64,000 bases of DNA, from the NCBI GenBank assembly GCA_943788935.1, contig CALSSE010000005.1, positions 186,001 through 250,000 on the forward strand, written 5' to 3'. Shown here piece after piece: positions 1 through 64,000 of this stretch (position 1 is the first letter of the stretch; every line of letters begins with the position of its first letter). The DNA is from an uncultured bacterium. GTDB taxonomy: Bacteria > Myxococcota_A > Bradymonadia > UBA7976 > VGTA01. The notes under the pieces were generated by a model. It ran no database searches, was not told the origin of the DNA, and was given only the letters and a program-made list of their open reading frames with translations. Position numbers and translations under genes: made by a program.

Positions 1-557
1 ATCGCGGGGTCTTGTACCGCGTTATTGAGCGTTAGTCGACGAGCACCCATGTAGTTTTGTTCATCTTCAAATTCTCCGAGATCGATCTTTAATCCAGGCT
101 TATCCTCACTCAAAGAGCCGAAGAATCCCTTCTTGCGGACCTCTACTCGCGGATAGAGTTGACCGTCAAGTGATACGCTCGCTTCAAACCATGTGAAGAC
201 GCTCTCGAAAGGCTGATCGAGACAATCAGGTCCGTCAAAGAGATCGACAAAGGTCCGGCTTTGAGCGCTGAGCTCATCCCAATCTCGCTCATCCATAGTG
301 ATCGAGACCTCTAGGAGTCGTTCAACGCTGTAGAGCTCATCTAGACGCTCTATTCTCTCAGCGAGAGTCTCTTGATCTGTCGCCAAGAGCTCTGCGTCAG
401 GCAACTCAACCATCCTCGTATCTGCGACGTTATCGACCATCATGTCTGAAAGAGACATCTCCGACGCCATACTGTTATCATCAGTACACGCTACAGTGAT
501 CGTTAAAAATATGATGAGTAGAGGATAAAGAATAAAAGTATGTGTTTGATAGAACAT
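1..557 (-). CDS. CotH-kinase-like lipoprotein, N-terminal part (gene runs off the window)
   Basis: The reading frame starts at an ATG at 557 and stays open to the window edge, so about 185 residues are visible. The N-terminus is a hydrophobic signal ending in ITVAC, with a likely lipidated Cys24, followed by an acidic Ser/Met-rich linker. From about residue 65 the protein has the start of a CotH-kinase domain: SITMDERDWDEL, then VRKKGFFGSLSEDKPGLKIDL and LTLNNAVQDP near the edge, matching the conserved CotH pattern (VR.KG...K...K..., LNN...DPS). The CotH family (PF08757) includes secreted or surface protein kinases; activity here is not shown because the catalytic residues lie outside the window. 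It lies 56 bp downstream of the GH128-like gene on the same strand, so co-transcription is likely. Confidence 0.75.
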   Translation of the reverse strand, partial: MFYQTHTFILYPLLIIFLTITVACTDDNSMASEMSLSDMMVDNVADTRMVELPDAELLATDQETLAERIERLDELYSVERLLEVSITMDERDWDELSAQSRTFVDLFDGPDCLDQPFESVFTWFEASVSLDGQLYPRVEVRKKGFFGSLSEDKPGLKIDLGEFEDEQNYMGARRLTLNNAVQDPA

Positions 558-613
558 TAGTGCCCCTCTGATTATATTCTTAGTTATGTCTTAATAGCCT
601 TTAGCTCCAACAG

Positions 614-1690
614 TCACTCATCATAATAAGGAGCGTTAATGTAGGCTTCGCCGAGCGGTGTGAGAGCGCCATCTTCAGCGAGAAGGTTGATCTTAGGGAA
701 ATCAGGACGACGACCTGTGAACCATGCATAGCGATAGACGTAAGGGTGGGCCTCAAGGAAGGAGACCATGTCGAGGAGCCACTGTCTCTCTAGTTCATCC
801 GTAGCCCAATCTTCGCTACGCCATAGGGCGAACTCAGTAAGCCAAAGAGGCTTACCATAGCGCATCACCATCTCATCGACTTGATCTTCGAGGCCATAGT
901 CATACCAATGAAGAGCGGTGTAATCCATATGAGGCTCGCGACCAAATTGAGCCTGAAACTCGTCTAGGAACATGTCCATCCAGATGATGAAATTACTCCC
1001 AATGGGTGCGCCTTCGACAACCACACAGCCACCGCAATAATTGAGCGCTGGGCCAACGAGCTCTAGATCATACTCCTCGGCGATCTCCTCAAAAATCGGC
1101 CAAATAGAGGCGGCATAAGCGGGAGTCAAGTTCGCTTGATCTTGAAAGTTAGGCTCATTGTAAGTGAGTAAATAACGAACCTCTGGGTGTTCGTCGAGAA
1201 AGGCTCTGATCTGATCAGGGTTGTTACCATTCCATGTCATCGGTACCCAGTCCACCTGAAGCGTTTCATAGCTCTCCGCGATCGGAGAGTTATAGCTCGG
1301 CGACCAATTATACCACCATGACACCCCTGAGGAGAGCGCCTCAAAGTCGGCGAGGCTATTAAAGCCATAAGCGATCCCTCGCTTATAGCTCTTGTTCAGC
1401 TCAAGGGGTTGAGAGCCACCCATATTCATATCAAATAGATCAGTGTTCATTTCGATATCAGTCCCACCGATATCAGTCCCTCCTGTGTCAATCACCCCTG
1501 TGTCAGCGAGCTCCTCTCTCTCACTCTCAGAGTCGGCATCCCCTATCATTTCTCCCGCTTGAACACTTGTGCCCTCGCTTGACATATCAATGATATTGGG
1601 GGCCTGAGCACCTTGTTCCATCTCTTCACAGCCCACTGCTGAGAGGAGCGCTGCGACCCATAGTGACGTTATAAATAATGTGTATCTCAT
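614..1690 (-). CDS. Lipoprotein with Asl1/GH128-type glycoside hydrolase domain
   Basis: 358 residues. The signal peptide ends at LSAVGC (Cys21) and is followed by an Asp/Glu/Ser/Thr-rich linker with a small TGGTDI repeat around residues 68-80. The catalytic domain begins at about residue 103 (KRGIAYGFNS) and shows the Asl1-like pattern: GVSWWYNWSP, the acid/base segment LLTYNEPN near 172-179, HWYDYG, and the probable nucleophile segment LWLTEFALW near 284-292. The family (PF11790, GH128) contains endo-beta-1,3-glucanases, so a surface-anchored enzyme acting on beta-glucan is a reasonable inference. The ATG lies just after an AGGAGAA-like ribosome site. The gene probably heads a two-gene unit with the CotH-like gene downstream. 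Confidence 0.82.
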   Translation of the reverse strand: MRYTLFITSLWVAALLSAVGCEEMEQGAQAPNIIDMSSEGTSVQAGEMIGDADSESEREELADTGVIDTGGTDIGGTDIEMNTDLFDMNMGGSQPLELNKSYKRGIAYGFNSLADFEALSSGVSWWYNWSPSYNSPIAESYETLQVDWVPMTWNGNNPDQIRAFLDEHPEVRYLLTYNEPNFQDQANLTPAYAASIWPIFEEIAEEYDLELVGPALNYCGGCVVVEGAPIGSNFIIWMDMFLDEFQAQFGREPHMDYTALHWYDYGLEDQVDEMVMRYGKPLWLTEFALWRSEDWATDELERQWLLDMVSFLEAHPYVYRYAWFTGRRPDFPKINLLAEDGALTPLGEAYINAPYYDE

Positions 1691-1873
1691 CTGAGTTCTC
1701 CTAGAGATATGATGATCTGAACTATACCTCAGAAAGCAGAAGCTGTCATGACCGACTCATAATCTATATCTGATGAGACCCTACAGGATCATGAAGTATC
1801 TATGGAGAGTGACCTTCGTATCTATTCTTAATGTCGACTAACTCTCATGAGTTGACGTCAGAAATGAGGCTTC

Positions 1874-2221
1874 ATGCCTGCCAAGCATAAGACAAAAAAA
1901 ACGAAATTTCCCGAGACCAGGGTGAAGAACCCTGAGCCTCTCGCAGAGAGTGATGATTGGATCATATGGGCAGCTTGGGCAGACCGAGTCACCTTTGAGG
2001 AGATCCATGAGCGAACAGGCCTTAACGAGGCAGAGGTCATCGCGACAATGAGACGCTCACTCAAGCCACAGAGCTTTAGGCGATGGCGCAAGAGAGTTCA
2101 TGAAGGGGTGAGTATCAAGCATCGTCGTCGCTTCGTGCTTCAACGTCAGGAAGAGCGAGAGTGGGCGCTCGATGTAGATCATGAGACCAAATCTCACTCC
2201 CCTCACTCCTCTGATTCGTAA
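1874..2221 (+). CDS. TIGR03643 family (DUF2805) protein
   Basis: 115 residues, soluble and basic. The core at residues 27-86 (DDWIIWAAWADRVTFEEIHERTGL, then EAEVIATMRRSL, FRRWRKRVHEG, KHRRRF) matches the TIGR03643/DUF2805 family, a short helix-turn-helix-like protein of unknown function. The N-terminus is Lys-rich. It is convergent with the MopE-like gene and divergent from the GH128-like gene. The minus-strand frame at the same place has no family resemblance and was discarded. Confidence 0.85.
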   Translation: MPAKHKTKKTKFPETRVKNPEPLAESDDWIIWAAWADRVTFEEIHERTGLNEAEVIATMRRSLKPQSFRRWRKRVHEGVSIKHRRRFVLQRQEEREWALDVDHETKSHSPHSSDS

Positions 2222-2315
2222 AAAACGGATCCGTTCAGCGACAACAAGATAATGGGCGTTGATGCCTAAGTCTATCGAACACTATAAGATGAATGTTGAG
2301 GAGTAAACTTGATGA

Positions 2316-2362
2316 ACCTTGATGGACCTTGATGGACAGTGATTGATGGACAGTGATGAGAG
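2316..2362. repeat. Short imperfect tandem repeats upstream of the MopE-like gene end
   Basis: The motif cttgatggac is repeated directly, then an agtgattgatggac-type motif appears twice. It belongs to the short slippage-type repeats seen all over this window. Confidence 0.6.
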
Positions 2363-2381
2363 AGGTACTCCACAGGGGTCT

Positions 2382-4706
2382 TTACTCCTCAAGATGCGTG
2401 TAAATAGAGAACTGGTAAAGTCGCCGATTATCTCTCAACTCAACCACGTTAAAAGCTCCATTATTCAGCGAGCCTACCCCACGTCGATCTCCACCATCAT
2501 CGATATCATCCTCAGGTATATTATTCCAATTGACCCGGCGGTCTTCCGCGGCTTCGTCTTGTTGAGTACCTAAGAAGACCCTGAACTCTGCTTGTAAGCG
2601 TTCAATCACTGAAGCTGGTACTAGACCGGTGTCATCAACGCAAGCGAACGCGATACCAAATTGGTCATTACCGTCAACCATCCCCTCTAGCTCTATCCCC
2701 GCATACTGACCTGTAGCGTTGGCCTTCACACAGCGTTGACGCCTCTCGTCATTGCCGACCGAGAAGGTGTTACATGCATCTAGACTGAGATTCCATGATC
2801 CGGACTGCTGATAAGTGTCCCAATAACCAAGGCCGATCACACAATGTGATCGCGCCCACTCAATCAACTCAACCTCAGCGACCTCGAGCGCCTGTGAGGC
2901 ATGTGTAGGGTCACAATCCCACGCGAGTCCGAGCCAATGATCCTCTCCTACTTCGTCAGTTGTGATGTTCACAGTGCGAAACCCACTCTGAGCCTCGGTG
3001 ACTTTGCAGCTGTAGTTCTCGGTGTCTAGATCAGATCTCGACGTACATGTCGCTTGGTTGGGTAGCGGTGGAAACTGAGCCCAGGGTGAACTCATCGGTG
3101 TCGTCTCTAAAAATGCCCACCCTAAACTCACCCAGCAGTGATCATACAAGAGCCGTCCACACACCGAGCCTTCATCAACCTCCCCGTCACAGTTGTTATC
3201 AACACCGTCACAGGTCTCAGGTAACCCCTCATCGATCGTACCATCACAGTCGTTGTCAATCTCATCGCATACATCTGCCGGTGGAGTGAGTGGCCCTTCA
3301 CAGATTAAATCTTGTGAGACTCCAAGCTCGATGCTTGGTGGGCAGACCCGCCGGCTATATGCACACCCCTCAACTTCACCTCGGCATGAGCCGCCAGCGA
3401 GCGGGTCATTATCAATCACTCCATCACAGTTGTTGTCGACGCCATCACAGACTTCTTCTTGGTCTTGAGAGGGTACCTCAGCGCGACACTCTTCACCTAG
3501 CACAGTACATACATATATACCGGGAAAGTCTCCCAGACACCCGTTATACTGACGTGAGCAGCTCGCTCCTTTGAGGGTCTCCTCATCAACGAAGCCATCA
3601 CAGTCGTTATCGGACAGGTCACAGAGCTCCGGCTGAGGTGAGGGTGTATCGCAGCCCTGATACACTCCACCGATGCATGTCTCTTCCCCCACACCGCATT
3701 CATTCGCACAAGAGCGCCGCTCGCCATCAACACATCCTCCACAGCTCAGGGCCTCATCCACTTGGTCATCGCAATCATCATCGACATTGTTGCAGATCTC
3801 CATCGTCGGCAACGGAGCGTCACACCCTATATATGCTCCATTCTCGCATATCTCTTGGCCTAGACCACACTCCGTCTGACAGGCGCGACTGTCTCCCTCG
3901 ACACATGAAGCACAACTTAGCCCTTCATCGAACTCACCATCACAGTCCTCATCTTCTCCTCCACAGATCTCATCACCAGGTAGAGGCGCGTCACACCCTT
4001 GATAGACGCCCATTTGACAGCGTTCAATGCCCGCGCCACACAGTGTCTCACAGGGGCGTTCATCTCCTTCAGCGCACACCGAGCAATTGGGCGCTTCGTC
4101 TATCTGACGATCACAGTCATTATCAATACCGTCGCAAAGCTCCTCGGAGATGACTTGAGGCGCGCTGATTATACATTGACCTTGATCATCTTGAAATTCG
4201 ATGGTCTGACCAAATTTCAAGCTGAAGTCTCTTCGTGTCAGTCGCGCTCTGCACCCTAAGTTCGAAGTACAGTCGCTGGTCACTCCTAAACTTGAGCAGG
4301 TCTCTACTCCAATAGGTATATCAAAGACGAAAAGGCTCATCGATACCTGATCTCCATCGATGAATGGAAAGTTAAGAGTAGACTCAGCCGCGGCCAAGTC
4401 GAGTGATCGTCCGCTCCAACGCATCAGACCTTGATATGTCATTGGCTCGACTCGATCAGATTGTAAGACCCAGCACCCCACAGCGTCTTCAGTTACGCTA
4501 GAGAAGATCCGCGTGGAGCAGCTCTGCTCATCTTCAAGCTCACCGAGGCATGACCCAAACTTAAAAGAGAGCGCGAGAGGGTCAAGAGCGTTGTCTTGGC
4601 AAGAGTAAGAGAAGAATGATGCGACGAGTAAACATACACATGTAGATATAGAGCGTTTCGTAGCTTCTATAGACGTTCGAATACAGTTTAAAAACATGAG
4701 CCTCAT
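2382..4706 (-). CDS. MopE-like lipoprotein with repeated Asp/Cys metal-binding motifs
   Basis: 774 residues. An N-terminal hydrophobic segment ends at FSYSC (Cys36), giving a lipoprotein. Residues about 207-380 hold three tandem repeats of about 57 residues. Each has six cysteines (CxxC, RxC, CGxGxExC, GCD) and ends with a DxDCDGxxDE motif. More DNDCDGxIDE motifs follow to about residue 520, matching the putative metal-binding motif of PF11617 (MopE family). The C-terminal ~250 residues contain two related Cys-containing segments (CWVSLGWAF and CVIGLGYWD), probably a beta-rich domain. The role is likely calcium- or copper-stabilised surface display; no enzyme domain was recognised. It is a single gene with intergenic DNA on both sides. 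Confidence 0.8.
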   Translation of the reverse strand: MRLMFLNCIRTSIEATKRSISTCVCLLVASFFSYSCQDNALDPLALSFKFGSCLGELEDEQSCSTRIFSSVTEDAVGCWVLQSDRVEPMTYQGLMRWSGRSLDLAAAESTLNFPFIDGDQVSMSLFVFDIPIGVETCSSLGVTSDCTSNLGCRARLTRRDFSLKFGQTIEFQDDQGQCIISAPQVISEELCDGIDNDCDRQIDEAPNCSVCAEGDERPCETLCGAGIERCQMGVYQGCDAPLPGDEICGGEDEDCDGEFDEGLSCASCVEGDSRACQTECGLGQEICENGAYIGCDAPLPTMEICNNVDDDCDDQVDEALSCGGCVDGERRSCANECGVGEETCIGGVYQGCDTPSPQPELCDLSDNDCDGFVDEETLKGASCSRQYNGCLGDFPGIYVCTVLGEECRAEVPSQDQEEVCDGVDNNCDGVIDNDPLAGGSCRGEVEGCAYSRRVCPPSIELGVSQDLICEGPLTPPADVCDEIDNDCDGTIDEGLPETCDGVDNNCDGEVDEGSVCGRLLYDHCWVSLGWAFLETTPMSSPWAQFPPLPNQATCTSRSDLDTENYSCKVTEAQSGFRTVNITTDEVGEDHWLGLAWDCDPTHASQALEVAEVELIEWARSHCVIGLGYWDTYQQSGSWNLSLDACNTFSVGNDERRQRCVKANATGQYAGIELEGMVDGNDQFGIAFACVDDTGLVPASVIERLQAEFRVFLGTQQDEAAEDRRVNWNNIPEDDIDDGGDRRGVGSLNNGAFNVVELRDNRRLYQFSIYTHLEE

Positions 4707-29383: not shown

Positions 29384-29895
29384 AGAGAAGAGCCAAAACA
29401 GAGCGTTATTATAGGGTTCAAAAGGACAGATATAGGCGAGGTTTACTTAGTGACAACCGCAGGAACAACCTTGGCTTGCGGCTCCTGAGCTGAGCGCGAT
29501 GGCTCGACGCTCGTTGATTACGGTCACGAGCCCATGCTTCGGCGTTCACCATCTCGTGACGAACCCGCGTGACACAAAGCCCCTTGGGGTGGACACACCT
29601 AAGAGACAGCCCCCGTGACCTTGGTAGCCTCGGCGAAGAGCTCACGCGGCGGCGCTTGTCCGCTGTTTGGGATAGGATGGTTTATCGTCAAAATTCGAAA
29701 AAATCGCTTGTTAGCTCTTGGCCCGCTCGGCTGATCCTCGCCTCCGCCGACTGTCCCCTCCGCCTTCCCCTAAAGGGGCCCCTTGGCGGAGCGGCCTGTC
29801 GTCTCCATCGACGACCTGCCGAGCCAAACGCTCAACCCTGAGGTCGTGTTGATTTTCAGAGCTCAATCATCAGCGCTGTTGTTCTTGTCAAGGGA
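29384..29895. other. GC-rich intergenic region with a DGR-like template copy and GC hairpins
   Basis: Apart from the template-like sequence at 29452-29489, the segment 29490-29840 is GC-rich and contains short strong palindromes such as aaggggcccctt (about 29772-29783) and ccccttgggg (about 29581-29590). Frames on both strands (29418-29645 minus, 29569-29841 plus) resemble nothing I know. The region might be a structured RNA or the remains of a lost gene. It is unlike the rest of the window in composition. Confidence 0.5.
29452..29489 (+). other. Template-repeat-like (TR) sequence for the kinase-FGE variable region
   Basis: 38 nt that match, in inverted orientation, the 3' part of the FGE coding region (revcomp of 29923-29960). 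The last 20 nt (cttggcttgcggctcctgag) are identical. In the first 18 there are five differences, and each is an A here and a G in the gene; none of the other 30 positions differ. In frame it reads DNRRNNLGLRLLS then stop, i.e. Asn-rich, as expected of a diversity-generating-retroelement template. The similarity does not continue to the left, so the template is short or truncated. The alternative is a relic of another FGE gene end. Confidence 0.6.
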
Positions 29896-32490
29896 TCAAG
29901 TGTCAAGCGTCAAAGTTCGCACCTCAGGAGCCGCAAGCCAAGGTCGTCCCCGCGGTCGCCGGGGCCGCTGAGTCGCGAAAGGCGACGCGACAGCTGTCGG
30001 CGCCGCGGTTCCAGCTACCGCCGCGGCGACCCGCGAAACAGCGGAGCCAACCCACTCGTGCGGATCACTAACTATGCTATTATGACCTTGATAAGCTGAA
30101 TCATTCCACTGATCTGAGCACCACTCAAAGACATTACCGCTCATATCATGTAAGCCCCACATATTAGGCTTCTTGGTACCCACAGGGTTCGTCTTTCCGC
30201 CTGAGTTAGAACCTAACCAAGCTACCTCATCTACATTATTTGAGCCCGCATAAGTGAGCTCTGTTCCTGCCTTCGCTGCATACTCCCATTCAGCTTCCGT
30301 TGGGAGGCGGTAGCCTGTCCGACCAAAGTCTAGACTTACGGTCGGTTGATCGCCCGACCCAATATCGTAGACTGCTTGCAAACCCTCCGCTTCGCTGAGC
30401 GCGTTACAGAAACGGATGCAGTCAAACCAGCTCACCGTCTCGACTGGTAAGTTGCCCCCCTTGAAATGGCTTGGGTTAGACCCCATCACCGCTTCCCACT
30501 GTGATTGGGTGACTTGGGTCTGTCCGATGAGGAAGGGCTTGGTGATCCGCACCTTGTGACGAGGCCTCTCATCATCATAGCCATCACCCTCTTTGGATCC
30601 CATCCAAAATTCACCGGCAGGGATGTGGTTGAGCTTAAACTCTTGCCCCTTTACTCGTGAGGTGATCACATCGCCTGCCTTGAGCTGTCGCTTGGGCGCA
30701 GGCGGAGGTGGAGGCGGGGTCATCTGGGGCGTTAGAGGGGGAGGGGTCACTTGACGCTTCGCCTCGACCTTGGTCTTGATCTCGGCGACTGTGTCCCACT
30801 TGACCCACGCAGACTCGCCCTGCCACCACAACATGAGGGTGTCGGCGCCTGCGAGGACTCGGACGGCCACCTCAACTACGCTGAGAGGGCCCTCAGGATC
30901 GGTGCCCGGTACGGTGGCATAATATGTCTTAGGCGTCTCGCTGAGCTTGGCGAATAGAGCTTGGGCGGTACCGCGAACGCTTGGCATAAAGTGGGTAAGC
31001 TGACTGATCAGCTCTCGCCACATCCCCTCACCAACCTTAGACCCAAGACACTTGGCGAGGGTCATGCCGAGCGCAAAGAGGTCTGCTGTGCCATCTACCT
31101 GCTCTCCTGCTAGCTGCTCGGGAGGCGCATATCCACCCGTCGCCATCCCCGTATGCCCTGTGCTTATACCGTCTTGGTGAGCGATCCCAAAGTCGATGAG
31201 GACTGGGGAGCCATCGCCGCGGAGCATTATGTTCTCGGGCTTGATATCACGGTGAATCACCCCTTGAGCGTGACAGGCGACCAACGCTGAAGCGAGGGCG
31301 CGAGCGAGCGACTTGACCTGACTCTCTTCAATCGGACCACGACTGAGCTTGGTTTTAAGGCTCACCCCCTCGATCATCGTCATCACAAAATACCACGAGC
31401 CGCTGAGTTGATCACGCCCCCAATCAAGGATATCGATCACCGAGGCGTGGCTCACCCGATCGAGAGCGTCGATCTCAGATCGAAAACGAGAGATAAACTG
31501 TGGATCCGAAGAGAGTGAGGCGCTCATTAACTTGACCGCGCCATCTTGACCACGACTGTTCTTGGCCCGCCACACTGAGCCCATCCCGCCGCGACCTAGT
31601 AAGCCTGTGAGTCTCCACCCCTTGTCTCCAATCTCTGAGCCGACGTCATAGCGTTGAGGCTCAGCCGATGGGGGCGTCGCGCCGCTCACCCGCGCTTGGG
31701 TCAACTTGGTGAGGCTCTGTCGAGCGCGCTGTACTCGTGGATCATTTGAGCCTGCTCCGGTGATCGTCCTCGCTACCCGCTCTGCGCCATCAAAATCTCG
31801 CTCTAGGGTGAGGAGCGCCATCTCGTGAACCTTAGCAGTGTTCCCATTCGGTGAGATTGACTTCATCTTAGCGAGCGCAGCCTCAGCAGTCGGGAGGTCA
31901 CGGCTGACCATGGCGCTCTTAAAGCGACCCTCAGCAGCCAAGAAGTGAGGCGCTTGGGCGGGGGTGATCCCCTCGCTAGCGAGCGGATGATGATAAGCGA
32001 CTGATGCCTCTAGGGTCTCCTGCATCTGATGAAGCATATCCCCTTGGGCCCCCTGTGCTCGTAACATCTCCACCATCTGTCGCTTCACCGTCTCTAGCTC
32101 AGGGGTGAGCGCACGAAGCTCATCACGCAAGGGGCTGAATTGATTCTCAAGTGCGCTGTTCATCATCGCCTCAAGCATGTCAGGCGACGCGCCAAATTGC
32201 GCTGACTGGGTCATCATCCCTACAACCCCGTCGAGCTGACCGCTGAGATGCCCCATGAGCGCCTCAAGGTGCTGTACATCACCACCCAAGCCCTCGATCA
32301 TCTCGGTGATCTTCTCGTCGGTCAGCTCCTGACCTTTGTCAGCGGCATAGTCACAAGCCGACTCTACCGCCGCTACGAGGAGCGGCGCGCCAGGGATGAG
32401 CGCATGAGCGGCGATCTTCGCTACCGCCCCCACACCCGCGCCATGGCCCTGAACGAGCCGATGCCCGAGCTGCTTGATGTGATCGAACAT
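29896..32490 (-). CDS. Ser/Thr protein kinase fused to an FGE-sulfatase (C-type-lectin-like) domain, C-terminus frameshifted
   Basis: 864 residues as read. Residues 1-165 form an alpha-helical N-terminal domain of unknown type (APLLVAAVESACDYAADKG, then a coiled region). Residues about 165-270 are TPR-like. The kinase spans 290-510 (GRGGMG 299-304, HRDIKPEN 413-420, DFG 433-435, GYAPPEQ). A Pro-rich linker (580-600) leads to the FGE domain from 617 (IPAGEFWMGS, VTQSQWEAVMG, PVETVSWFDCIRFCN, YRLPTEAEWEYAA, GLHDMSGNVFEW). After DPHEWVGSA the frame is wrong: the next frame gives RGGSWNRGADSCRVAFRD and the third gives SGPGDRGDDLGLRLLR, ending at 29910. The correct fold therefore needs two single-base corrections near 30030 and 29972. 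The fusion is a known type of DGR target; its own role is unknown. Confidence 0.85.
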   Translation of the reverse strand: MFDHIKQLGHRLVQGHGAGVGAVAKIAAHALIPGAPLLVAAVESACDYAADKGQELTDEKITEMIEGLGGDVQHLEALMGHLSGQLDGVVGMMTQSAQFGASPDMLEAMMNSALENQFSPLRDELRALTPELETVKRQMVEMLRAQGAQGDMLHQMQETLEASVAYHHPLASEGITPAQAPHFLAAEGRFKSAMVSRDLPTAEAALAKMKSISPNGNTAKVHEMALLTLERDFDGAERVARTITGAGSNDPRVQRARQSLTKLTQARVSGATPPSAEPQRYDVGSEIGDKGWRLTGLLGRGGMGSVWRAKNSRGQDGAVKLMSASLSSDPQFISRFRSEIDALDRVSHASVIDILDWGRDQLSGSWYFVMTMIEGVSLKTKLSRGPIEESQVKSLARALASALVACHAQGVIHRDIKPENIMLRGDGSPVLIDFGIAHQDGISTGHTGMATGGYAPPEQLAGEQVDGTADLFALGMTLAKCLGSKVGEGMWRELISQLTHFMPSVRGTAQALFAKLSETPKTYYATVPGTDPEGPLSVVEVAVRVLAGADTLMLWWQGESAWVKWDTVAEIKTKVEAKRQVTPPPLTPQMTPPPPPPAPKRQLKAGDVITSRVKGQEFKLNHIPAGEFWMGSKEGDGYDDERPRHKVRITKPFLIGQTQVTQSQWEAVMGSNPSHFKGGNLPVETVSWFDCIRFCNALSEAEGLQAVYDIGSGDQPTVSLDFGRTGYRLPTEAEWEYAAKAGTELTYAGSNNVDEVAWLGSNSGGKTNPVGTKKPNMWGLHDMSGNVFEWCSDQWNDSAYQGHNSIVSDPHEWVGSAVSRVAAAVAGTAAPTAVASPFATQRPRRPRGRPWLAAPEVRTLTLDT
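29923..30030 (-). other. Putative variable region (VR) at the 3' end of the kinase-FGE gene
   Basis: The segment encodes the last strands of the FGE domain (RGGSW to LGLRLL in mixed frames). It is GC-rich and dominated by NNC codons (CGC, GGC, GCC, GAC, AGC), as expected if AAC codons of a template were mutated at adenines. It pairs with the template-like sequence at 29452-29489 through a 21-bp perfect inverted repeat. Confidence 0.55.
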
Positions 32491-56349: not shown

Positions 56350-56380
56350 CTTAAACCTCTCTAAGCGCTTAAACCTCTCT
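56350..56380. repeat. 18-bp repeat spanning the stop codon of the reverse transcriptase gene
   Basis: cttaaacctctct occurs twice at an 18-bp spacing; the second copy contains the stop codon of the RT gene. Confidence 0.9.
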
Positions 56381-57682
56381 CAACTTCTCCATGAGGGATC
56401 GACCTTGATCGGGGTCCGTCATATGGATAAAGGCGATGAGACCGATTAAGTGGTTAATACTCTCCCCCTCATGCAACGCCTTACCTCGCTTGAGGTTATG
56501 GATCATCGCCCGCACCTTTCTTCTTAGCTCTCTCGGTGTCCGAGGTTGGTCATCCCCGTTTATGATAAGTCCGGTCACTTTCTGCTGATGTCCTACCCTC
56601 ATTACGTGGGTCTTATCAGCGCGCACCTTGAGCCCTTCATCCTCTACCACCGCATGAACCGTCCCGAATAGCTGCTTAATCATCGATGAGAAACTAGGAG
56701 CATCCTCGGATCTTGCCTGAGGGAGACTAAAGGTTAAGTCATCCGCATAGCGCGTATAACGCCAGCCATTCTTCTCGGCAAAGCCGGCTAAACGACGATC
56801 TAATCGTAAACAGGCAGCGTTGGTAAGCGCCGGACTCGCTGGAGAGCCTTGAGGGAGACAACGAGGTCCCATCGCGATATAGACACGCTCTCCTTGATCC
56901 TCCACCACTTGTCGAGGCGCCTCAGTACATAAGAGAGCGAGCAGGGCAGCGATGCCATCCATATAGCCTGCTTGACGAAAAATACCCTTTACTCGCTTGA
57001 AGGTGAAAGTAGGGAAGAAATCAGCGAGATCCATGCTCACCACGACTGAAGAGTCAATATGCTCTACCGCGTTACTATAAATCGAACGTCCTGGGAGGAA
57101 CCCATGGGCGGCGCCATGTACAGTGAGCCGCTCAGCGATATTCCGTAATACCCAATGTTGAGCGGCTTTAAGTTTAGGCATCGGAGCCCAAATCTCTCGT
57201 AAGCCACCGCTCTTCTTGGGGATCGTGAAAGAGCGATAATGGATCGACGTCGCAGCCTCTCGATGATAGCAGAGCCATCGAAGCTCGCCGAGACTGATCT
57301 CTAACTGCTCACAGAGCTCTTCTGGAGTCTCTATCTGAGGTAGGTTTCGCTGCTGAAGACGAGCTGATAAGTGATCAGGGTCAAAGAAATCAATGCTGAC
57401 ATCACTTTGCCAAAAGACCTCTTCGCCTAGGTGAACGATATGAAGCGCTGTATACGAACGCCACACCTTCGCCTGAAGTGGCTTACGTACTACTTCCTCA
57501 GCCTTAATCTCTTCAATGTAGGCCTTTTTTTGCTTCGACCCCATGCTGAGAACATCTTGACGCTTCACCCAAACGCCGTGTTCACGGAGTTTAGATTCTA
57601 CATATTTACGCGGTCCTCCCGCGCTGACGACCTCATCCCAAAATGATTGGTGTGAGGCTCGATCGCTGAGATGATCACTCAT
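56369..57682 (-). CDS. Retron-type reverse transcriptase
   Basis: 437 residues, no signal peptide. An N-terminal extension of about 135 residues precedes the RT core. RT blocks: IPKKSGGLREIWAPMPKLKAAQHWVLRNIA, HGFLPGRSIYSNAVEH with the retron NAXXH motif (204-208), VVSMDLADFFPTFTF with the first catalytic Asp218, LPQGSPASPALTN, RYADDLTFS with YADD (312-315) and VTGLI with the retron VTG motif (369-371). The order and the LLALLCTEAPR stretch resemble myxobacterial retron RTs. LPQG..SP is unlike the SQ motif of DGR enzymes. It starts at an ATG that overlaps the stop of the SWIM gene by 4 bp, so it lacks a preceding msr-msd region. Third gene of a leftward unit. Confidence 0.93.
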   Translation of the reverse strand: MSDHLSDRASHQSFWDEVVSAGGPRKYVESKLREHGVWVKRQDVLSMGSKQKKAYIEEIKAEEVVRKPLQAKVWRSYTALHIVHLGEEVFWQSDVSIDFFDPDHLSARLQQRNLPQIETPEELCEQLEISLGELRWLCYHREAATSIHYRSFTIPKKSGGLREIWAPMPKLKAAQHWVLRNIAERLTVHGAAHGFLPGRSIYSNAVEHIDSSVVVSMDLADFFPTFTFKRVKGIFRQAGYMDGIAALLALLCTEAPRQVVEDQGERVYIAMGPRCLPQGSPASPALTNAACLRLDRRLAGFAEKNGWRYTRYADDLTFSLPQARSEDAPSFSSMIKQLFGTVHAVVEDEGLKVRADKTHVMRVGHQQKVTGLIINGDDQPRTPRELRRKVRAMIHNLKRGKALHEGESINHLIGLIAFIHMTDPDQGRSLMEKLREV

Positions 57683-59574
57683 GATTGACTCGCATCCATA
57701 TAGTCGCGTCGCTCTAACTCAGCGACTCGTTTAAAATAAGCCGCACGAGCGGCGGCGATTTCAGAGAATAGACGATGGAAGAAGCGTGGGGACTCTCCCT
57801 CATCCTCCCAACGCTCGATGAGGAGCTTACGCTTCAGCTCCACGACTCGGCTCAGCTCACGGCCACGTTGGCGTTTTAAGTATACTGAAGTGGCGACTTC
57901 TACCCGCTCAGGATGAGCGGCGAGCTCTGCCTGACGCGCGGCCTCATCGCTTGCATACTTAACCCAAAGCGCTATGACGTGTGGACAAGGTCCTAATTTC
58001 TGTTTCTCTCGATCCTTCATCCACGCGCAATCGCAGCTGACCTTACGCATCCCTGCCCCCTCGAGGATTTGAAACTGCGGTGTATAGACGGGCTCTACCG
58101 GTAAATGAGCTGCCGGCAACTCGGTTACCTCGCCGAGAACCTCTATCTCACCGGTAGGGAGCTCACTCACTGTAGTGATCACTCTCCCAAGTTCAGCAAG
58201 TTTTGAACCTCTCGCCTCACGCTCGTTTCGATAACGCAACGCTGAAGGAGAGAGTCCGCTAAATAGCGTTCTCTGAGAGAGGGTTCCGCTCTTAAAATCA
58301 GGACGGGCTAGGCCCACTTGAATGAGTGCCCTTACCACATCTTTGGGGTGATGGGTATCGGGTATAGCAACGCTCTCCGAGATGAGTTCAGCGAGTTGCT
58401 TAGCAGTGAGAGACCCAGCTTTACTGAGAACCTCTTGAGCTGAAGACAGCAGAGGTTCCGAGACATCTGCTCGAGGGAGAGTGAGATCTAAGAGGACCCC
58501 TCTAGACCAGTTGTTTGGTCGAAAGCCCATTGTCGCCAAGGTGAAGGTCATCGCTCCACAATGAAGAACCCAAAAGGTCGGCTGGGCCTCCCCCAAAGCG
58601 CGTAATTCTACGTGGTCGATGTAGGGAAGAAGCTGATCAAAGATAAGCAGATCTCTTCGATCCCAGACCCCTAGGATCTCAGCGCGGTCGCCTCGATAGA
58701 CCTCACCGGTACATACTAAACGCCAGTTCCAAGGCTCAAGAGTGAGCGCTGGGGGCTTTCCAGGTACTAACTCAAAGCGCACTCCCTTCTTTTGCTTGGG
58801 CAGGTCAGCGTTAAGGCGAATCTGCTGTAGGACATTATACAAGTCCATACGACTGAGCGAGATTGAGCGGAGAGGTCGAGTGGAAGCAGAGAGGAGCTGA
58901 GTGAAGTTACGCATCCACTCTGTCGGAGCGGGGAGGGTTTTGGTGAGCTGTCCTACACATTCATCTCTGACCTCATTAGGACTAGCACCTAAGCTCAGGG
59001 TGAGCGCTCCATTGTTATTAAGAGTCGTGAGACCTCTCTGCAGCGTCTCTCCTCCCTCAAACTGAGCGCTGAGCTCTCTCACTCCCTCACCCTTAACATC
59101 ATAGCCCTCAGGGGAGACGCTGATCATGGCGTAGACTCTGCCCGTTGGATCTAGGGTCTCAAAGGCGAGCCCCGACTCATTAAGAGAGACCGTTGGGTCA
59201 CAGCCTACCCAAGCGGTCGGATCATGATCACCGAGGAAGTGATAAAAGGATCGGCTAACCTCTATAGGGGTGATATTAGGGTCTAAGCCTCGACGCCATG
59301 AGGCATACGCCTCATACACCTGAGGGTCATCAGGGAGATAAGCGCCTTTAGGTTGATGAAGAGAGAGAAAGATCCTCATCGCTTCGCGGAACACTAAAGG
59401 ATCCTTGAGGGTGAGTTCTGCGCGAGGAGACGGCGCTGAATTCCCCTCTAGAGAGTGAGTGAACAGGCAGACGCGCTGCTCGTCAGGGCGGGGGCGCTCT
59501 ACTGAGCTCACTCCTGCATAATGCAAAGAGAGAGCCTTAGTCATCGGGGTTTCGCTGTATTGGTCGCTCATCAT
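57679..59574 (-). CDS. SWIM zinc-finger protein
   Basis: 631 residues, soluble. The SWIM motif is CDCAWMKDREKQKLGPCPH with ligands Cys514, Cys516, Cys530 and His532 (CxCx13CxH). The rest is mostly unassigned: an N-terminal domain (about 50-210), a WD-like stretch with RPLRSISLSRMDLYNVLQ and WNWRLVCTGEVYRGDRAEILGVWDRRDLLIFDQLLP, and a helical segment before the SWIM motif that could bind DNA. SWIM fingers bind DNA or protein and occur in conflict systems with MoxR ATPases and vWA proteins, as well as in MuDR transposases. It is the second gene of the unit; stop and RT start overlap. Confidence 0.88.
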   Translation of the reverse strand: MMSDQYSETPMTKALSLHYAGVSSVERPRPDEQRVCLFTHSLEGNSAPSPRAELTLKDPLVFREAMRIFLSLHQPKGAYLPDDPQVYEAYASWRRGLDPNITPIEVSRSFYHFLGDHDPTAWVGCDPTVSLNESGLAFETLDPTGRVYAMISVSPEGYDVKGEGVRELSAQFEGGETLQRGLTTLNNNGALTLSLGASPNEVRDECVGQLTKTLPAPTEWMRNFTQLLSASTRPLRSISLSRMDLYNVLQQIRLNADLPKQKKGVRFELVPGKPPALTLEPWNWRLVCTGEVYRGDRAEILGVWDRRDLLIFDQLLPYIDHVELRALGEAQPTFWVLHCGAMTFTLATMGFRPNNWSRGVLLDLTLPRADVSEPLLSSAQEVLSKAGSLTAKQLAELISESVAIPDTHHPKDVVRALIQVGLARPDFKSGTLSQRTLFSGLSPSALRYRNEREARGSKLAELGRVITTVSELPTGEIEVLGEVTELPAAHLPVEPVYTPQFQILEGAGMRKVSCDCAWMKDREKQKLGPCPHVIALWVKYASDEAARQAELAAHPERVEVATSVYLKRQRGRELSRVVELKRKLLIERWEDEGESPRFFHRLFSEIAAARAAYFKRVAELERRDYMDASQS

Positions 59575-59669
59575 CGGGCCTTAGGCGTGAGGTGAAGAGA
59601 GGAAAGAGTAGAGAGGAAAGAGAGAAAAGAGAAGAGAGAGGAAAGAGTCATCGATGGGTCAAAACTTGA
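59575..59669. other. Purine-rich spacer between the HEAT and SWIM genes
   Basis: About 75 of the bases are A/G on the plus strand (ggaaagag and gagaaaagagaag units), so the transcript is pyrimidine-rich here. It separates the HEAT gene's stop from the SWIM gene's start. It could be a pausing or structured region, or a repeat tract. Confidence 0.6.
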
Positions 59670-62600
59670 TCAGTGATTCGGTGAGGGGAGGCGATGACGT
59701 TCTCGTTGTTGACGGCGACGAATGGATCGTCTCCTCGCTCGCCACCCTTCTCGTTGGAGTGACTCTGACGAGCTATTCTTGGCGAGATCGATGAGCGCCT
59801 GCTCTACCGCATCATTTGCGAGGCGCGCGGAGGCGCTGATCAACCCAAGTTGGGTCTCTTCATCGAGGTGGCTTAGATCGCCCGACTGAAGCTCGGTGAG
59901 TAAGCGAATGAGACTAGCGCTATCATCATTAGCGATCAGCGCATTAAGCGCGAAGAAGTCTCCTCGACGAGCGGCGGAGAAGGCGCTCTCTGTGACCTCG
60001 ACTGTAGAGACACGACTCACCGCGTCCCAATCGGCGAGACTCAGTCCACCGACTGATTCAGCGCGATCGTCAGAGAGCGCGTGATCGGCAAGCCCAGCGC
60101 TAATCGCTAAGCGAGTGATCACCGCGCTGAGCTCGGGCGCTTGAGCAGCGGCACAGCTCATCAGGCGTTGATCGATCACCTCGCTCGCGACACCTTCTAG
60201 GGAGAGGAGCTCAAGGGAAAAGAGCGCCTCGCGATACAGCTCGACATCAAGCCCTTCGGCGCATAGAGCGAACCAGATGGGAACCTCTCCTCCCTCGCTG
60301 CGACCCCAGAGCCAAATAAGTTGGCGCCACAGCTTCATCAATTTGGCTTGTTGGGGCTGATGAGCGCCTGCGAGACGGGCGACCTCCATCTCTCTCCAAC
60401 GATCACCAATACTGATGGTCGCGTCTAAGAGTAGCTCACGGTCTTCAACGCTAAGGTTAGCGGAGTCCCCTCCGACTAAGGTGAGCGTCATCTGCGCGAG
60501 ATTAGGTGCCCCTTCAATCGCTTCTGCGAGTCTCTGGAGCAGGGGCGAGAGTGGAGCGGGGCTGAGCTCTCGAAGTTTTGACTCAAAACGGCTCACTGTA
60601 GATCGGTGCTTAGAGCCACGACTAGCGGTGCCAAAGCAGAGCTCAATCCACAATGATGCCTCGCCATGATCTAAGATCACTCGCACGCTCTCTTCCCACT
60701 CATCACTGTGAGTGAGATCGGTCTTGAAGAGCTCGGTCGCGGCGACCAATAATGGAGATAGATCATCTGCTCGATCTACACCAGCGGCGCGCAACAGTCT
60801 GGCGCACCACGCGTTATAAGCCTTAACCCTGCTCGCTTTACCAAAGAGATCACTCTCTCGTAACACCTTAGTGAGGGTCTCAGAGGCTTCTTCAGTGGGA
60901 TCACTGATCAAGGCTTCGATCATCTGATCGTTGATCCGTGAGTTCATCTGAGCGCGGAGCAAGAGCGCTCGTAACGCTCTCCAACCCGCGGGCTCATTAA
61001 ACTGGCGAATCCCTGAGAGCGCCGCCTCCACAAGCTGATAGTCAGCTAACCCGTCGATGAGTCGACTGAGGATCTCCTCAGCGACCTCAGATTTACTCAT
61101 GTAGCCCAAGGCTTCTAAGGCTTCACTGCGAAGAGTATCTTCTTGATCATCGAAGAGGTTCATCAGAGTGGGTACCGCGCGTAAGTCTCGGCTTAAGCCG
61201 AGAGCTGTCACCGCTTGCTCACGCCAATGAGATGACTCCCCCCGGTCACGAGCAATCCCCATCAACAGAGGTACTCCTGCGCTGTTTTGAGCATAAGCTA
61301 AGGCGATCGCGGCGAGGCAGCGTGTGGTTTGATGTCTATGCTTAACCAGAGCTTCAAGTGGAGCAGGGTCAAACGTACGATACTCTACCCGCCAGCGCAG
61401 AGACTCTAGCGCCTCCTCCCTTAGTTGATCAGTCACGACTCCTTCAGGGAGCTTGGCGAGCTTGAGGAGCGCTGCCTCTACTTGAGACGAACGAGTGGTC
61501 TTAGCGGCCTCTATAAGATGGAGATGATATTTAATACTCTCGTAACGGCCAAGCTGAACACAGCGTGTTATGAGTGCGCTGAGGGTCTCCTCTTGATAGG
61601 CTCTCTGCTCTTCTTCTTCACGTTCCTCTTCACTCATCTCCTCCCATATCGCTTCTTCATCAATCGGCTCATCAAATCCGCTAATCTCCAAGACACAACG
61701 CTCTAAGTCATCGGACTCCCATCGAGAGTCTCCCATTAACTTAAGCAGCCTAGAGACGATTGATGAATCTCTCAGCGAGGAGAGTGCTCTCCAAGTCGAA
61801 GAGGCGTCAGCGCTTTGAGTCGGGTCTTTCACAAGCCTATCGAGCACGACCTTGGCGGCTCCACTAACTTTCAGATCTTGGAGGCAGCTGAGCGCTCGCT
61901 TATAGGTGTTAGGTTCAGTAGAGGCGATGAGCGTCTTGAGGGGCTTCACCAAAAGTGATCGTCCCGCTTCATCGAGGGCCCGTTGGCCGATGAGTCGCTC
62001 GCTTACTAAGAGTTGAACCTCTCCACTAGCGCTCTCTTGCCCCTTCCCTCCATACACTTTAAGGAGCTCTGTGAGAGACCCCTCTCGACTCTGATCTTCA
62101 CTCAGCGCCTGTAACAGCTTCACCTCTAACTGAGAGAGACTCCGAGCGCGAGCTTCAGCCTCGTGATCTTCAGTTAAAGGCTTATCTTCGGTAGGCCAAG
62201 CCTTGAGTAAACTCACCCAATGATTAATCGCGGTAGATCGTAGACGCTCATTCGCTGACTCAAAGCCCCTAGTTAAGATCTGTAAACCTCGAGTTGGGTA
62301 GAGCTCAAGGAGAGCTCTCATCGCGGTCGAAGCACCGATCCCGTCATCGCTATGAATCAGCTCTAGCGCCCTCTCATCGCTTACTCTCGCCAACAGCTGA
62401 GCGCCGCGCTCTATACAGGTAGACTGCCCGCTAGAGATTAAGAGCTCCGCTCGACCTAAATCACTGAGTTGCAGAACCTCCCCCTCTTCATCAAGGACAA
62501 TGAGAGCGCGTCTCTGCAAGCTATCATCGAGGCGTAAGCTCATCTGCAAGAGCGCTCGTGCGCCGATCGGATCCGACGGGAATAACGGGACTAGAGCCTG

Positions 62601-64000
62601 CAAGCTCTGCTCATCACGATGAGCTGAAATCAAGCTCGCATAAGTCCCAAAAGCGAGGGCCTCTGCCTCCGCTTGGGTCAAGTTCAAGGTGATCGGGTTC
62701 GGTGGCGTCAAAGATGAGCGACCGAGACGTTTCGCACAAGCCTCAGCGAGCTGGTGTTGTCGTCGCAGCTCAGCGGTCCATCTCTTGGCTTCTTCACTGC
62801 TCCGCGGGAGATGACTGAGCGCCTCGGCGGCATATGTCCGCGCTCTTGCTTCAACATGGGTGAGACAGCGAGCGAGGAGGCTCCAACACTCGCTGTTCAT
62901 CCAGTGGGGCTTGCTCCCCTGCGGCTTCTTCTCTCTCTCTCCTGACTCGAAAGAAGACATCTCCGCCTCCCACTTAAGGTCGGCTGGAGGTCGGCGAGCG
63001 CTCATCTCCTCTGCCCACCCATCAGCGAGCTGCTCTAGGCTGTGAGCACGAGAGATCCAGTCAGCACAGCGACGACGCAGTTGGTAGTCATCACTGGAGA
63101 GTCCAGCGATCAGTAGAGGACAGTCGCCGCCATGACTCAAAAGTTTGATCAGCTCCATATACATCACCGACTCACCCCCGCGCCCACCACGGTTGATCAG
63201 TCGCGAGAGGCGACGCTCCTCTTCCATGCCTCCCAGAGTGAGAGAGGCCTTGATATCCTCGTCGTCGGTTAGCTCAGCGCTGAGCTGGTTCATCCCTCGT
63301 TGATCACTCAATGAGATGAGCGCCCAAGCGATCGAATGATCTTGATCATCCGACTTCAACTGACTCGCGAGCGCAGTGGTCGCCTCTGCTGGTGCACACG
63401 CTCTTAGTGAAGCCCGCAAAGTGTGAGCGAGCTCTTCATCAATCGCGCTCATCGCGCCTTCACTTCGATAGCGCTCAAGGAGAGCCCACACGGCGGTAAA
63501 CCCTCCCTCAAATCGACCTTCAACGATGACTTTCACCGCGGCGGTGACCCGGTCTCTCCATCGTCGGTGTGCTCTCGTGACCGCTCCCTCGATCTGATCA
63601 TTGACCGAGACCAACGCTTGTAGAGACTGCTCAGCGAAGACTATGCCTACAGCGCTCGCCTCTGATCCACTGCTCGCTTCTGATCCACTGCCCGCCTCGG
63701 ATTCACTCACCCCTGCTCGAGCTTGAGCGCTCGCTGCGACGAACGCTCTCTGTTGAGCAGAGAGCGCCAAGGTGACCTGTCTCTTCCATTGCAAGTCATC
63801 TAAGAGTCCAAACTCTCCCCCTGCCGATTCCTGCGCAGCGATCACCTGCTCGGCTTGGGGAGCCGGAGTCTGTAGGGCCTCTAGCGCAACACTGAGAGCC
63901 CTCTCATCACCAACTCTCGCCAGAGTGAGCGCAGCTCGATCTCGTATGTCAGCATGATCATGATCGAGGAGTTTGGCGGCGACTGAGACCACCTCATCAC
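59670..64000 (-). CDS. Giant HEAT-repeat protein (N-terminus outside the window)
   Basis: At least 1,440 residues; the frame stays open to the window edge, so the start lies beyond 64000. It consists almost entirely of HEAT-type repeats of about 30-40 residues (RDRAALTLARVGDERALSVALEAL, LRSEALEALGYMSKSEVAEEIL, TTRCLAAIALAYAQNSAGVPLLM, HWREQAVTALGLSRDLRAVPTLMNLF). Acidic inserts (EEEREEEEQ) interrupt it. No enzyme domain is visible in this part. HEAT solenoids serve as large binding scaffolds. It is the first visible gene of the HEAT-SWIM-RT unit. The missing 5' end may hold an N-terminal domain and upstream genes such as an ATPase. Confidence 0.9.
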   Translation of the reverse strand, partial: DEVVSVAAKLLDHDHADIRDRAALTLARVGDERALSVALEALQTPAPQAEQVIAAQESAGGEFGLLDDLQWKRQVTLALSAQQRAFVAASAQARAGVSESEAGSGSEASSGSEASAVGIVFAEQSLQALVSVNDQIEGAVTRAHRRWRDRVTAAVKVIVEGRFEGGFTAVWALLERYRSEGAMSAIDEELAHTLRASLRACAPAEATTALASQLKSDDQDHSIAWALISLSDQRGMNQLSAELTDDEDIKASLTLGGMEEERRLSRLINRGGRGGESVMYMELIKLLSHGGDCPLLIAGLSSDDYQLRRRCADWISRAHSLEQLADGWAEEMSARRPPADLKWEAEMSSFESGEREKKPQGSKPHWMNSECWSLLARCLTHVEARARTYAAEALSHLPRSSEEAKRWTAELRRQHQLAEACAKRLGRSSLTPPNPITLNLTQAEAEALAFGTYASLISAHRDEQSLQALVPLFPSDPIGARALLQMSLRLDDSLQRRALIVLDEEGEVLQLSDLGRAELLISSGQSTCIERGAQLLARVSDERALELIHSDDGIGASTAMRALLELYPTRGLQILTRGFESANERLRSTAINHWVSLLKAWPTEDKPLTEDHEAEARARSLSQLEVKLLQALSEDQSREGSLTELLKVYGGKGQESASGEVQLLVSERLIGQRALDEAGRSLLVKPLKTLIASTEPNTYKRALSCLQDLKVSGAAKVVLDRLVKDPTQSADASSTWRALSSLRDSSIVSRLLKLMGDSRWESDDLERCVLEISGFDEPIDEEAIWEEMSEEEREEEEQRAYQEETLSALITRCVQLGRYESIKYHLHLIEAAKTTRSSQVEAALLKLAKLPEGVVTDQLREEALESLRWRVEYRTFDPAPLEALVKHRHQTTRCLAAIALAYAQNSAGVPLLMGIARDRGESSHWREQAVTALGLSRDLRAVPTLMNLFDDQEDTLRSEALEALGYMSKSEVAEEILSRLIDGLADYQLVEAALSGIRQFNEPAGWRALRALLLRAQMNSRINDQMIEALISDPTEEASETLTKVLRESDLFGKASRVKAYNAWCARLLRAAGVDRADDLSPLLVAATELFKTDLTHSDEWEESVRVILDHGEASLWIELCFGTASRGSKHRSTVSRFESKLRELSPAPLSPLLQRLAEAIEGAPNLAQMTLTLVGGDSANLSVEDRELLLDATISIGDRWREMEVARLAGAHQPQQAKLMKLWRQLIWLWGRSEGGEVPIWFALCAEGLDVELYREALFSLELLSLEGVASEVIDQRLMSCAAAQAPELSAVITRLAISAGLADHALSDDRAESVGGLSLADWDAVSRVSTVEVTESAFSAARRGDFFALNALIANDDSASLIRLLTELQSGDLSHLDEETQLGLISASARLANDAVEQALIDLAKNSSSESLQREGWRARRRSIRRRQQRERHRLPSPNH

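Follow-up and report, generated by a model that had tools for sequence, protein, structure and literature searches.

Diversity-generating retroelements (DGRs) diversify their target genes by a mechanism in which a reverse transcriptase (RT) copies the RNA of a template repeat (TR) with errors at adenines and the resulting cDNA replaces the variable region (VR) of the target (PMC8144416). Targets that join a kinase to a CLec domain, as well as remote targets, are already known (PMC7517822). Incomplete loci have also been described: DGRs 3, 4, 5 and 7 of Thiohalocapsa PB-PSB1 have their RT or TR lost or disrupted, and in that genome repeats stand where the RT or TR should be (PMC10907252). In this study, we analysed a 64,000-nucleotide stretch of DNA from an uncultured bacterium (the window), in which the end of a kinase-FGE gene is matched by a short inverted copy, and compared it with the remainder of its genome (G000), a sister species (G001), a further family member (G002) and other relatives. 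We propose, at a probability of about 0.72, that the locus represents a decayed DGR that has lost its RT and most of its TR, with a dispersed repeat lying between the template stub and the target.

The kinase-FGE gene (29896-32490, minus strand; 864 aa as read) encodes an N-terminal family domain, a Ser/Thr kinase domain (residues 295-482) and an FGE domain (residues 623-801), as assigned with Pfam. It has paralogues in G001, G002 and G006, with six proteins of related N-terminus in G001 and others in G002 and G006; a search for named relatives returned distant FGE matches only. The known kinase-CLec targets of DGRs likewise combine a Ser/Thr kinase with a C-terminal CLec/FGE domain carrying a 3' VR and have scattered paralogues, a likeness that leaves the N-terminal domain aside; in contrast to the window genome, both a DGR RT and a full TR are present in theirs. 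At its 3' end, the FGE domain of the window gene carries a patch of ~120 bases (29923-30045, minus strand), delimited by GC contrast and paralogue alignment, whose GC content is 0.74, compared with 0.47 and 0.48 in the sequence to either side. Its boundaries are sharp, and such a GC-rich patch at a gene end is typical of a DGR VR. Alignment with L134, a paralogue on G001:C40 that ends LGLRLLRCEL, places two one-base gaps in the patch, near 30027 and 29970, which may be consensus errors. In the frames of L134 the patch reads RGGSWNRGADSCRVAFRDS and GDRGDDLGLRLLRCEL, and the two lie in different frames; the listed open reading frame therefore crosses the patch out of frame. This double frame break was absent from an earlier, sequence-only reading of the window. 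Since the VR of the gene is frame-shifted, the locus is probably inactive; if the breaks were consensus errors over a still-variable site, they would count against a decayed DGR.

The 38 bases at 29452-29489 (plus strand), hereafter the stub, are 33/38 identical to the reverse complement of 29923-29960, the part of the VR-like patch that they match on the minus strand, when the two are aligned in register; in frame, the stub reads DNRRNNLGLRLLS. A repeat search of the window returned the pair as 29456-29492 against 29920-29956, inverted, at 89%. The match is short, as a chance inverted repeat might be, but its genome-wide BLAST E-value of 8e-7 effectively refutes coincidence, and the FGE-end reading frame is the same in both copies. 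The pair is therefore no chance match. At all five mismatches the stub has A and the gene has G, and every one of these differences is non-synonymous in the VR frame. The sequence-only reading had described both the pair and its A-to-G rule, and the in-register alignment bears them out; its count of eight adenines stands for the divergent first 17 bases, while the whole 38-mer has nine, the ninth lying near the 3' end. With nine adenines counted, the naive probability of five random differences all landing on adenines comes to 2.5e-4 (1 in 4,000), in place of the 1 in 9,000 given earlier, and when A-specificity is restricted to the first 17 bases p is ~0.009. Adenine specificity, seen here at five of five differences over a short span of 38 bases, is thus moderate evidence when taken alone, and at these odds suggestive, so further lines of evidence were sought.

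The same pair could have arisen had the 38-mer been the relic of a second FGE gene's end, left by an inverted duplication and without template function. FGE genes are very numerous in this lineage (65 domain matches in G000 and 73 in G001), the stub can be read as the C-terminus of an FGE protein, stop codon included, and A/G transitions are common. However, the five differences all fall in the 17 bases of the 5' half and none in the 3' 21-22 bases, a split of 5/17, all non-synonymous, against 0/21. Homology also ends before the GTGCGAACTTTGA tail (RCEL/TTGA) that is common to the window gene and L134 and is missing from the stub; such a break would be expected where a TR stops, but not in a duplicate of a gene from that family. 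In the 68 bases between the stop codon of the neighbouring Bax1-I gene and the stub, no FGE-like reading was found. The stub is, in addition, unusually rich in Asn codons: among the nine residues before G-x-R, Asn occurs at most twice in the 48 FGE ends compared from G000 and G001, three times in the stub, and three to four times in five true TRs. A second FGE gene, one of three options left by the sequence-only reading, is less likely on account of the missing tail and the Asn-rich codons, and we consider it improbable.

The Asn-rich character of the stub was also pursued across whole assemblies. The template-end pattern AACRACNTNGGNNKNCGNNT, which encodes Asn-(Asn/Asp)-x-Gly-x-Arg, has one match in the 5.95 Mb G000 assembly, the stub itself, and a reversed control has no match there. 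In the relative G014 its single match is a true TR just behind a DGR RT, and of its two matches in G001 one is the VR of L131 and the other is unrelated. The pattern (AACRAC...) was designed with the stub already known, so that these counts test rarity and not sensitivity, and it missed the TRs of G003, whose codons differ. When aligned with the TR 3' ends of related DGRs, the stub falls in register with them. Judged by these sequence features, the stub resembles a DGR template's 3' end and would be the end of a former TR.

Complete DGRs in related genomes served as controls. DGR-type RTs (G-x-x-x-SQ, YMDD) of the same order or class are present at G014:C366, G003:C393 and G003:C40 and in G004, G019 and G022, with the motifs GxPIGxxTSQ and YMDD, and Asn-rich TRs adjoin the RT in G003, G014 and G019. 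In the control TR/VR pairs, 88/102 core differences lie at TR adenines, distributed as 45 A>T, 37 A>G and 6 A>C. Five of five A>G, as in the window, would be unusual under this spectrum (~1%), barring a bias of the spectrum at this locus, and this counts against a decayed DGR. The complete loci of the same order (G003:C40, G003:C393 and G014:C366) share FGE target ends with the window and have Asn-rich TRs; unlike the window, they have an intact RT and a TR of more than 100 bases, and lie in GC-rich genomes. At G003:C40, the TR is inverted to all three VRs: it shares a strand with the RT, and the three VR genes, one of which faces the RT, are on the opposite strand. The order in the window is the same but without the RT: the stub (plus strand), ~430 bases, and the VR (minus strand). 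The inversion of template relative to gene, which had seemed odd from the window alone, is therefore no anomaly in this lineage.

RT profile searches found no DGR-type RT in G000 (91% complete), G001 or G002 (all three assemblies 88-91% complete), and thus no RT with the GxxxSQ motif in either the locus or its genome. Searches of G000 with PF00078 and phrog_1423 returned group II, retron-like, RT-Cas1 and other RTs only. Brt scores 61.6 bits on PF00078, well over the cut-off used, and the search would therefore detect a DGR RT in assembled DNA. Between the stub and the gene, tblastn gave no match to an RT remnant. An adenine-tolerant pattern for the template of the 5' VR, run across the G000 assembly, matched only the VR itself, and an adenine-tolerant scan of ~1 Mb of DNA for ten FGE ends found no TR besides the stub. 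Where a TR of ~100-150 bases covering the VR would be expected there are 38 bases; this reduction of the presumed TR, together with the lack of a recognisable RT fragment between stub and gene, counts against a decayed DGR. The sequence-only reading was right that no DGR RT is nearby and that only the 3' part of a template is recognisable, the 5' part being found nowhere in the assembly; the genome-wide searches that it had proposed, for a DGR-type RT and for a full-length template, were run on G000 and found neither. Among its three options, a decayed DGR fits best, given TR and VR remnants with no RT or full TR in an assembly that is 91% complete.

The RT in the window (56369-57682, minus strand) was rejected as a DGR RT, being a type XIII retron RT. 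It belongs to a complete-looking type XIII retron set in a row (56369-63992, minus strand) made up of the RT (PADLOC RT_XIII), a SWIM protein and a HEAT/ARM protein. In G001, the locus L113 (G001:C83:1-4317) carries at 486-4316 a fusion of the window gene's N-terminal and kinase domains to two retron-like RT domains, in a single open frame that the contig end truncates. Its tandem RT part resembles the arrangement at L005 (G000:C9:173757-177383), where two retron-like RT genes lie side by side.

The kinase-FGE gene is one of several with such an end. FGE ends that are conspicuously GC-rich for their genomes occur in G000 on C2 (L045), C29 (L050, frame-broken) and C18 (L072, frame-broken), and in G001 at L127, L131, L134 and L152. 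By their constant tails (LGLRLLRCEL, LGGRLARSID and LGLRLSRSLG) they form a few families, and TTGA/CTGA words repeat after several of them. We also observed a conserved TTGACCCTTGGGTCAA palindrome just after the FGE stop codon at L045, L152 and L198, altered in the last. Hairpins or cruciforms have been described downstream of DGR VRs, and the palindrome may recall these.

Such a set of VR-like ends in G000 and G001 bears on the possibility that the window gene is, together with the remaining GC-rich FGE ends, an active or recently active remote target; a DGR RT and full TR would serve them in trans from a plasmid, a prophage or a contig missing from the assembly, and the stub would be an old partial template. 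Since the assemblies are 88-91% complete, an unassembled DGR cassette is possible. Remote targets have been described in cyanobacteria (PMC7517822), trans diversification has been inferred in Thiohalocapsa PB-PSB1 (PMC10907252), and 3/4 VR-like ends of G000 have frame breaks that hypervariability at the site may have introduced into the consensus as artefacts. Against this, no DGR RT was found in G000, G001 or G002, the ~1 Mb scanned holds no TR for any VR-like FGE end, and the only TR-end pattern matches are the stub in G000 and, in G001, a VR and an unrelated place. Diversification in trans, though conceivable, lacks support, and the remote template envisaged by the sequence-only reading, for which the assembly offers neither a DGR RT nor a full-length TR, is in our view an outside candidate. 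A slightly more doubtful variant is that the genus diversifies a set of FGE-ended genes from a DGR cassette apart from all targets, on unbinned DNA such as a plasmid or prophage, or by means of a non-canonical RT; each target would then have a local template stub or nothing.

Between the stub and the VR lies a dispersed, intergenic, non-coding repeat (29502-29755, unstranded) with two copies, the second at G000:C19:16009-16263 (L047:8009-8263) and 79% identical; relatives gave short matches only. As a structured or DGR RNA the 255-base repeat was rejected, having no Rfam match and a two-copy fold no better than shuffles (z ~-1), and as a RAYT transposase remnant it was rejected for want of a match to RAYT. 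Beside the neighbouring Bax1-I gene, G001 and G002 carry other genes, with neither the kinase-FGE gene nor the stub, so the stub-gene segment is not shared at that place. Thiohalocapsa PB-PSB1 resembles the window genome in its CLec/FGE-type targets, incomplete loci, several VR-type genes and dispersed repeats (PMC10907252). The two differ in that intact RTs and TRs are present at other places in the PB-PSB1 genome or in other strains, whereas none was found in the window genome, where the template is 38 bases long. The parallel between the window repeat and the repeats of PB-PSB1 is suggestive only.

DGR origin of the locus is well supported by independent lines, since the Asn codons of the stub are unique in the genome, the VR patch is GC-rich, the stub is in register with TR 3' ends and a DGR of the same order is likewise inverted. 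According to our model of a decayed DGR, the kinase-FGE gene would once have been a DGR target, its last ~120 bases replaced by cDNA that had picked up adenine-directed errors during the copying of a template repeat. Of that template, the 38-mer at 29452, inverted to the gene, would be the surviving 3' end, once served by an RT; the RT itself and three quarters of the template, on its 5' side, would since have been lost, and the dispersed non-coding repeat would now separate stub from gene. The most likely verdict is thus a relic of an already familiar type of system, rather than one that is novel or still at work. If so, two marks, a short adenine-rich template stub and a GC-rich 3' patch in the gene, still identify a DGR-type target once its RT and the bulk of its template have been lost. 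With complete DGRs of the same order as a yardstick, the locus offers a testable case of DGR target decay, or of service in trans, in an FGE-rich lineage.
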